DNA of 64,000 nt from Bacillota bacterium (GTDB taxonomy: Bacteria > Armatimonadota > HRBIN16): contig JAIMBJ010000006.1 of the NCBI GenBank assembly GCA_023511455.1, forward strand, positions 1 to 64,000. Direction: 5' to 3'. Of this stretch, positions 52,785 to 54,939 are shown one piece after another (within the stretch, counting starts at the first letter, position 1; each line of letters opens with the position of its first letter). Position numbers and translations under genes: made by a program. The notes under the pieces are model-generated. The model was not told the DNA's origin, did not search any database, and saw nothing but the letters and a program-made list of their open reading frames with translations.

Positions 52785-53687
52785 TTACGTACTTTGTCCA
52801 TTCTTGACCAGGATTCGTTTGCGCACCAGTGCCACCTCCCGCCCATCTGTGTTGACTGCGCGTGCCTCCAGAACATACTCGCCGTCGGGAACCTGTGTGC
52901 TGTCCCAGCGGAAGATGGTGGGTAGCACGTTGGACGTGCCGACGGGGTAACCGTCCACGCTGAAAAACACGAACTGCACCGTCTCGGAGTGGCGGGCGGT
53001 AACCTCCAGGTTCAGGATGCCGTTGACCACAGGCAGGTTTGCTTTTTCTGCGCGCTGGATACTGCGCTTGATCGCCTCCCGCGACTCGCCTGGCAGAGCA
53101 GCCGCTACTGTCTCGCGCATCGCTTGCGCGCCTGCCTCGTCCTGTACCAGCACCTGCAGCACCCACACGTCGCCCACACGGTAGCGATGCCCCGGAAGCA
53201 GGGAATATGCCATGCGCCCTTCTTGTTGCAGCAGCCGCACAGAGATCTCCTGTCCGAAGTCGCGGAAAAGCACCGACTCGGCGGGGATGTCGGTGCGCAG
53301 AGCGGTGAGGGACTGGACATTTGCCGCTGCGAGACCGACGCTCTGAGTCTCGTTATGCTGTAGCAGCCACAGTCCCTTGCCCTGAACCGCCGCTGTGCGC
53401 GGGGGGAGTTTGGAATTGCTTAAACGCTGGGGCAGAGCGATAACACGCCCGATGGTCGTGAAGTGTGTGCCTCCGTCCACACTGATGCTCACCGTGCCTC
53501 CCGGAAGCAGCACGATACGCGCTCGGAACACCTCTGCCTGCCCCAGAGCAGGCTGGGATAGGCAGACTAGTGCGTGCACCGCAAACAGGAGCGCGGTGAC
53601 CGATGACTGCACAGTGAGCCGCAGATGGCGCCCCTCTCGCGGAGCGAGAGGGGCTGGGGAAAAGGTTTTTCGCCGCAGACTTCTCAT
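52785..53687 (-). CDS. Secreted Ig-domain protein, translationally coupled to nadA
   Basis: ATG 53687 overlaps the nadA stop (ATGA), so this start is favoured. The first 22 residues (RRKTFSPAPLAPREGRHLR) are encoded across a perfect palindrome at 53630-53654; a signal peptide follows (SVTALLFAVHALVCLSQPALGQ). GTG codons just before it could be a second start. Residues 50-200 are beta-rich with a LysM-less, SH3-like feel (SLLPGHRYRVGDVWVLQVLV). The last 80 residues are an Ig-like domain (VQFVFFSVDGYPVGTSN, DGEYVLEARAVNTDGREV). No family name. The link with NAD synthesis seems positional only. Confidence 0.75.
   Translation of the reverse strand: MRSLRRKTFSPAPLAPREGRHLRLTVQSSVTALLFAVHALVCLSQPALGQAEVFRARIVLLPGGTVSISVDGGTHFTTIGRVIALPQRLSNSKLPPRTAAVQGKGLWLLQHNETQSVGLAAANVQSLTALRTDIPAESVLFRDFGQEISVRLLQQEGRMAYSLLPGHRYRVGDVWVLQVLVQDEAGAQAMRETVAAALPGESREAIKRSIQRAEKANLPVVNGILNLEVTARHSETVQFVFFSVDGYPVGTSNVLPTIFRWDSTQVPDGEYVLEARAVNTDGREVALVRKRILVKNGQST
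53630..53654. repeat. Palindromic repeat inside the start of a coding region
   Basis: GCCCCTCTCGC and GCGAGAGGGGC, perfect 11-bp arms around GGA. The CCCCTCTC core also forms the hairpin at 10326-10354, so it looks like a dispersed repeat. Here it encodes part of the N-terminus of the gene coupled to nadA and could also hinder that gene's translation when folded. Confidence 0.6.
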
Positions 53688-54817
53688 TGCGCGGCTGCAG
53701 CTAACGTCTCGGCGCGTCTGGCGGCTTCGGTAACCTCGATCATGCGGTTCAACGCCACACGCGCCCAGTGCGCGATGTCTTCGGGCACTTTCACCTGGTT
53801 GACCACGTTGCCCTGCGCCAGATTCTCCATCGCCCAGCACAGGTAGGACGGATGGATGCGGTACATCGTAGAGCAGGGGCACACGATGGGGTCCAGGCAC
53901 ATGATGAACTTATCGGGATGCTCCGCGGCGAGGCGGTGCACCAGGTTAATCTCCGTGCCGACCGCCCACTGGCTGCCCGGCGGCGACTCGCGAATCACCC
54001 TCACGATATATTCGGTAGAGCCGTCGCAGTCTGCCGCTTCTACCACCTCGCGACGGCATTCGGGATGCACCACCACCTTGATGCCCGGATACATCTTGCG
54101 GGCGGCTTCGATCTGCGCCACCGTAAAGCGCATGTGAACCGAGCAGTGTCCTTTCCACAGGATGAGCTTCGCGCGGCGCAGAGCTTCCTCCATGTTGCCA
54201 CCGAGGGGCAGGTCGGGGTTCCACACCACCATCTCGGTATCAGGGTCTATACCCATCTTGATACCCGTATTGCGCCCGAGATGCTGGTCGGGGAAGAACA
54301 GCACACGCTCGCCCTGCTGCAAAGCCCAGGTGAGGATGGCTCTGGCATTGGAGGAGGTGCACACGATACCGCCACGCTCGCCACAGAAGGCTTTCAGGTT
54401 GGCGGCGGAGTTCATGTAGGTCACAGGCACGATGCTGTCGGGTGGGAACAGGCTGGTAAGCTCGCGCCAGCAGGCGCGCACCTGATAGATGTTCGCCATG
54501 TCCGCCATCGAACAGCCTGCAGACATGTTCGGCAGAATGACCTTCTGGTAATCGGGGGTGAGGATATCGGCAGTTTCCGCCATAAAGTGCACGCCACAGA
54601 AGACGATGAACTCCGCGTCGGGATGGCGGGTCGCATCAAGGGCGAGTTTATAGCTATCGCCCCTGTAGTCGGCGTGCTGGATAATCTCGTCGCGCTGGTA
54701 GTGGTGACCCAGGATCACCACGCGCTCGCCCAGCAACTGTTTCGCACGGCGAATGCGCTCATGCGTTTCCTCATCGGAAAGCTGGGAATACTCCAGTGGC
54801 AAAGGAGCCTGAACCAT
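53684..54817 (-). CDS. nadA: Quinolinate synthase NadA
   Basis: NadA condenses iminoaspartate with dihydroxyacetone phosphate to quinolinate, the precursor of NAD. The 377-residue protein carries VVILGHHYQRDEIIQHAD (about 33), the three cluster cysteines in NMSAGCSMADM (about 121), HPECRREVVE (about 250) and IVCPCSTMYRI (about 330), and GTEINLVHRL (about 303). The start ATG 54817 has AAAGGA 11 bases upstream. nadB and nadC are not in the window. A promoter at 54910-54939 and a riboswitch-like structure at 54837-54884 precede it. Confidence 0.96.
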   Translation of the reverse strand: MVQAPLPLEYSQLSDEETHERIRRAKQLLGERVVILGHHYQRDEIIQHADYRGDSYKLALDATRHPDAEFIVFCGVHFMAETADILTPDYQKVILPNMSAGCSMADMANIYQVRACWRELTSLFPPDSIVPVTYMNSAANLKAFCGERGGIVCTSSNARAILTWALQQGERVLFFPDQHLGRNTGIKMGIDPDTEMVVWNPDLPLGGNMEEALRRAKLILWKGHCSVHMRFTVAQIEAARKMYPGIKVVVHPECRREVVEAADCDGSTEYIVRVIRESPPGSQWAVGTEINLVHRLAAEHPDKFIMCLDPIVCPCSTMYRIHPSYLCWAMENLAQGNVVNQVKVPEDIAHWARVALNRMIEVTEAARRAETLAAAAQ

Positions 54818-54836
54818 TTTCCGCTGTCCTTTCTAC

Positions 54837-54884
54837 GCTGTGCGCCAGTCCCGGTTGCACGGGACGGGGATGTTGGCACACAGC
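54837..54884 (-). promoter_or_regulatory. Candidate class I NAD+ riboswitch (nadA motif) in the nadA leader
   Basis: Read 5' to 3' on the minus strand: a 10-bp stem P1 (GCTGTGTGCC with GGCGCACAGC, one G-U pair), the unpaired AACATCCCC, a 6-bp stem P2 (GTCCCG with CGGGAC) closed by TGCAAC, a single T, then the 3' arm of P1. The NAD+-I riboswitch domain, as I recall it, has P1, AACAACCCC, P2, a single U and P1'. One base differs in the 9-base joint. The P2 extension known from acidobacterial examples is missing. It lies about 20 bases into the transcript and 19 bases before the nadA ATG. An ACAGC repeat near the SD could pair with the 5' arm of P1. Confidence 0.6.
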
Positions 54885-54909
54885 AAACGTTGTGGTGTTT
54901 TGTGTTCAT

Positions 54910-54939
54910 AGTATACCGGATGAAAGAAACGAGATGCAA
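54910..54939 (-). promoter_or_regulatory. Sigma-70-type promoter of nadA
   Basis: TTGCAT (54934-54939) and TATACT (54910-54915) with an 18-base spacer on the minus strand; transcription should start near 54903, giving a leader of about 85 bases. Confidence 0.6.

Follow-up and report, generated by a model that had tools for sequence, protein, structure and literature searches.

A candidate single-domain RNA resembling domain II of the NAD+-I riboswitch precedes nadA in Armatimonadota

The 64,000-nucleotide stretch of contig JAIMBJ010000006.1 analysed here (hereafter, the window) carries on its minus strand nadA, the gene for quinolinate synthase (53684..54817; 377 aa), which is present in the open reading frame list and matches NCBIfam TIGR00550 with 335 bits (cut-off 262.9). 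Ahead of this gene, a ~50-base RNA can be read directly from the minus strand: positions 54884..54837 read GCUGUGUGCCA-ACAUCCCC-GUCCCG-UGCAAC-CGGGAC-UGGCGCACAGC, and the nadA start codon lies 19 nt downstream of the end of the element. The 5′ strand of the basal stem P1 (GCUGUGUGCCA, 54874..54884) pairs with its 3′ strand, P1′ (UGGCGCACAGC, 54847..54837), and the two enclose the bulge J1 (ACAUCCCC, 54866..54873) and an unbroken hairpin, P1a (GUCCCG-UGCAAC-CGGGAC, 54848..54865). The leader thus shows the order P1, bulge, P1a in a single domain without a P2 extension, and its fold energy corresponds to z = −2.8. A likeness to the class I riboswitch for nicotinamide adenine dinucleotide (NAD+), also called NAD+-I or the nadA motif, had been proposed from this leader, with a 10-bp P1, a 9-base joint and a single U before P1′. 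The order of these parts stands, whereas their lengths need correction: published structures of NAD+-I contain an A7-U46 pair, whose counterparts here are the A that opens the joint and the single U; P1 therefore has 11 bp, and the bulge 8 nt rather than 9.

In domain I of NAD+-I riboswitches, C6-G47 receives the ligand's adenosine in its minor groove, where it stacks on A8, while Mg2+ mediates the hold on the phosphates at A8, C14 and C15 (PMC7297122, PMC7708056). In these structures the bulge, spanning A8 to C15, forms the pocket for NAD+ or adenosine diphosphate (ADP), and the nicotinamide half of NAD+ is not contacted. All of the ADP-contacting nucleotides (C6-G47, A7-U46, A8, C9, A10, C14, C15 and G16) are present in the window, where C54875 and A54874 correspond to C6 and A7, and 54847 and 54846 to U46 and G47. 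The element shares with domain I these nucleotides and the order of P1, bulge and P1a, but domain I has a 7-bp P1a followed by the internal loop J2 with a GYG motif, needed for high affinity, which the armatimonadotal RNAs lack. Their P1a is a plain hairpin with a free loop, mostly of 4–6 bp; GYG stands where domain I has it in 2 of 60 leaders, and is absent from the P1a of the window. In one locus (L082, 1495..1551, from the leader pair G085/G092), GUG precedes the closing U by exactly 7 nt, as GYG does in domain I, and this may be a domain-I-like solo form or chance.

The closest likeness is to domain II. The published domain II sequences (Aai and Aca), CA-ACAUCCCC-GUCC...GGAC-UG, are identical to the window core at these positions; for the comparison with the tandem acidobacterial RNA, the sequences printed in PMC10702441 were used. 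Shared features are the location before nadA, a P1 ending in C-G/A-U, the ACANCCCC bulge, and a P1a starting with GUCC/GGAC and devoid of J2. A Shine-Dalgarno sequence at or next to P1′ is common to domain II, the window and most compact leaders, but many f12 leaders have P1 15–60 nt from the start region. Unlike domain II, the window element has no preceding domain I, belongs to another phylum, scores below the Rfam cut-off and is followed by a Shine-Dalgarno sequence 4 nt past P1 instead of within it. The minimal form suggested earlier is upheld as to the single domain; its nearest likeness within the tandem riboswitch is to domain II, not to a shortened domain I. The NAD+-II (pnuC) motif has a related metabolite and proposed translational control in common with the element, but differs in the gene and in its pseudoknot fold, and it was absent among the Rfam matches of the window leader at E values up to 10.

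Of 4227 Rfam families, RF03013 (nadA) gave the top match to the window leader (24.0 bits, E = 0.0014, 181 nt), and this leader was also the best RF03013 match in the entire genome (3.85 Mb). The covariance check suggested with the original prediction thus returned the anticipated family, although at a score below its curated gathering cut-off of 37.5 bits. No Rfam gathering cut-off was passed anywhere in the window, and that of RF03013 was passed by none of 251 Armatimonadota genomes. The RF03013 model, described from acidobacterial leaders, is shaped like domain I (a long P1a, an internal J2 loop bearing GYG, and P1b), and for this reason annotation by the Rfam cut-off misses the armatimonadotal element. 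Our covariance model R1 scores the window leader at 53.1 bits; because R1 and a further model, R2, contain the window sequence, their E values for it are not independent, whereas RF03013 and the permuted-core control described below are. The search for further copies in the same genome yielded an R1 match of 22 bits inside a coding sequence and weaker, chance-like ones. Rfam matches in three other loci (L097, L099 and L092) were chance-like and had no link to nadA, nor did a pattern match in a viral contig (L203).

Conservation of the element extends far beyond the window. Among 119 distinct nadA leaders, 64 contain the core CAACANCCCCG without a mismatch, whereas permuted cores average 0.03. 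A scan that tolerated as many as 3 mismatches yielded a single genuine near-miss (A8C), so that nadA leaders, bar a few, either have the core or lack it. The pocket nucleotides are kept in 60/60 leaders bar one A8C, a count that partly reflects selection by pattern but is supported by the 3-mismatch scan. Compensatory changes in relatives preserve P1: in a MAFFT alignment of 38 leaders, the P1 covariation score is 0.494, against 0.143 ± 0.017 for shuffled alignments and at most 0.125 with the partners slid, and standard pairs fill 86% of the P1/P1a cells versus 65% after shuffling. With 57 leaders aligned to the model, the P1 score is 0.535. The retention of AACANCCCC and of both stems in related nadA leaders, on which the original prediction had staked its claim, is thus what was found. 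Natural variants of the bulge, recovered by covariance model and all located before nadA, carry C13A (L207, ACAUCACC) or C13U (L208, ACAACUCC; L210, ACAUCUCC). In domain I the partner of C13 is J2, which is absent here, and these changes, few as they are, fit an RNA which has kept the pocket and lost, or never had, J2. The A8C variant (L042/L200, CCAUCCCC) likewise precedes nadA. In one subgroup, f7 (six leaders, including L208 and L210), P1 contains a constant asymmetric internal loop, UGU/C, directly below the C-G/A-U pairs.

The closest relatives of the window nadA (90–96% identity) are found in metagenome-assembled genomes, including those of Armatimonadetes bacterium RSWS16, HRbin16 and a Chthonomonadia bacterium. 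Judged by this gene, the host belongs to the Armatimonadota and not to the Acidobacteriota, in which the NAD+-I motif was described, confirming the suspicion of a non-acidobacterial host. R2 matches (E ≤ 0.01) were present in 78 of 291 sampled Armatimonadota genomes, and in 72 of the 291 the element precedes nadA, so that the likeness first noted in a single leader recurs across the phylum. These 72 genomes fall into eight family-level groups (f1, 10; f7, 10; f12, 26; f24, 3; f40, 1; f43, 15; f44, 6; f45, 1). The linkage was mostly verified by tblastn on fetched loci, with 2 genomes (G080 and G018) assigned from an identical core and their genus. Among the six other R2 matches, nadA stood beside none of the five inspected (all but that in G008); R2 or pattern matches in five genomes (G149, G151, G055, G076 and G214) were set aside, having no adjoining nadA. 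An additional case, with the core ahead of nadA, comes from family f33 (L076/L108). No match was obtained in 251 Chloroflexota or 95 Methylomirabilota genomes, in searches run without a positive control.

Within the genus of the window, the element is present in every leader inspected, and changes in P1 largely preserve pairing. No gene other than nadA was found to follow the RNA. The same leader accompanies two NadA subtypes that share 35% identity and have different NCBIfam models as their top matches; the RNA has thus been kept whatever NadA lineage follows, which points to a regulatory role. In Fimbriimonadia relatives that do not carry the RNA (five loci), nadA appears nearly leaderless, with a TATAAT/TATACT-like box at most ~20 nt from the start codon.

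NAD+-I riboswitches are stated always to comprise two tandem domains (PMC9481103, PMC10702441). A second copy of the core was found in none of the leaders, and the minimal single-domain form noted in the window holds across the phylum. Where a good −10 box was predicted (53 leaders), the median distance from its end to P1 downstream is 10 nt; the transcript is accordingly predicted to begin with P1 or immediately ahead of it, too late to include a domain I of ~50 nt. In the window, the predicted −10 box (TATACT, 54910..54915, minus strand) ends 24 nt ahead of P1 and is accompanied by TTGCAT (54939..54934, spacer 18). The assignment is based on −10 scoring and on a promoter footprint, TTGCATC...CGGTATACT, invariant in ten leaders of the genus; a separate promoter scan of the window did not list this promoter, and TTGCAT matches at only 3/6 positions. 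The P1, the ACANCCCC bulge on the 5′ side and the P1a follow one another as in NAD+-I, with covarying stems and in a 5′ nadA leader. Given that the tandem arrangement is missing and the Rfam cut-off is not reached, we do not file the element as a canonical NAD+-I riboswitch.

Between the predicted promoter and P1 lies ACCAC (54892..54896, minus strand), invariant in the ten leaders of the genus; a similar GCCAC sits immediately 5′ of P1 in the distant f43 group. ACCAC might pair with the 5′ strand of P1 or with the start-codon region, and the tests of this were weak. A 5′ hairpin of ACCAC(AGC) with the P1 5′ strand was rejected, having weak support confined to the window genus (Fisher p = 0.02, related sequences) and none elsewhere. 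The Shine-Dalgarno sequence AAAGGA (54827..54832, minus strand) follows P1 by ~4 nt and is part of a GAAAGGA invariant in 10 leaders of the genus. On the opposite strand, a terminator-like hairpin with a T-rich tail (54879..54894, plus) overlaps the P1 5′ strand.

We propose that the leader acts in cis as a regulatory RNA of one domain, with the NAD+-I fold and closest to an acidobacterial domain II without its partner, and that it represses translation of nadA; we put the probability of this reading at roughly two in three. The ACAUCCCC bulge and the C-G/A-U pairs atop P1 would hold the ADP part of NAD+, together with Mg2+, and ligand binding would stabilise P1. Most compact leaders have a gap of −6 to +6 nt between P1′ and the Shine-Dalgarno sequence, and in one leader (L093) the Shine-Dalgarno sequence overlaps the predicted stem. 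Given this proximity, a ligand-stabilised P1, ending within ~6 nt of the Shine-Dalgarno sequence in compact leaders, is proposed to exclude the ribosome, such that plentiful NAD+ would lower nadA translation. The data themselves show the sequence, structure and covariation of the element, its single copy, its closeness to the promoter, its linkage to nadA and its spread through the phylum; the identity of the ligand, its affinity, the direction of control and a common descent with the acidobacterial RNA are what we infer.

Several observations weigh against this proposal. In domain I, the GYG of J2 pairs with C13/C14, and mutants losing the J1-J2 contact lost detectable binding. Neither in-line probing nor isothermal titration calorimetry (ITC) gave a signal for the acidobacterial domain II in isolation, which by fluorescence bound ADP at ~3.4 mM; in favour of the proposal, a domain II crystal binds NAD+ in the same pocket without a J1-J2 contact. 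The P1 of the window genus is predicted to form without ligand even at 70 °C, which leaves the switching step unexplained, and no general anti-P1 strand was found in 59 leaders. Pairing of the P1 5′ strand with downstream sequence (UUUGCUGU/ACAGCGGA in the window; AGCGTTA/TAACGCT in L013) was rejected, as it showed no enrichment over shuffles in the 59 leaders (Fisher p = 0.57), and no pairing of P1′ with the downstream region was detected. In many f12 leaders, P1 lies 15–60 nt from the start region, to which a ribosome-blocking model has no direct fit, and the A8C leader alters a position of the pocket itself.

Control of nadA by the same fold could respond to a different natural ligand that contains ADP or is phosphorylated (ATP, ADP, NADP or the nicotinamide half of NAD+), or could require a protein or a second RNA copy as partner. 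We regard this as unlikely, yet as a possibility to be taken seriously: the nicotinamide half is uncontacted in the structures, domain II has been proposed elsewhere to recognise the nicotinamide moiety, and the near-invariance of the C-run in the absence of J2, with which it would pair, hints at a different partner. Conversely, nadA as the sole gene behind the RNA points to the NAD+ pathway, and the leaders as a whole yielded no conserved second element. Still less probable, in our estimation, is convergence, in which the pocket would have arisen twice through selection for ADP binding near nadA, a history compatible with the function proposed above. The shortness of the core (~15 informative bases), the distance between the two phyla and the lack of matches in the Chloroflexota and Methylomirabilota genomes, with the limit already noted, would suit separate origins, but domain II is matched in core, helix order, the GUCC/GGAC start of P1a, gene context and position before the start codon.

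A passive role in the leader, whether as mRNA stabiliser, ribosome spacer or RNA thermometer, and independent of any ligand, is improbable for this hairpin. Such a role accords with the very stable P1 of the window genus, but a passive stem has no need of a near-invariant 8-nt bulge and C-G/A-U pairs while the stem sequence varies freely, nor of leaders showing a perfect core or, with few exceptions, none. As for a chance hairpin in one leader, with which the Rfam score below the family cut-off would agree, it is already refuted by phylum-wide conservation and covariation.

On sequence grounds, we propose that the element is a solo, domain-II-like variant of NAD+-I, probably new in both its host phylum and its single-domain form. 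Our literature search, which did not extend to the founding papers (Malkowski 2019, Weinberg 2017), found no paper reporting the solo form or an armatimonadotal host. More tentatively, the domain-II-like unit could be a complete one-domain NAD+ sensor, controlling nadA alone in Armatimonadota, and may keep the ancestral state that preceded the tandem duplication in Acidobacteriota. The ligand of the second domain is disputed, with none seen by in-line probing or ITC, millimolar binding by fluorescence and NAD+ in the crystal. A natural domain-II-like unit, kept alone before nadA in a second phylum, is a clean object for settling what domain II senses, and the solo RNA can reveal how one domain behaves without the other.
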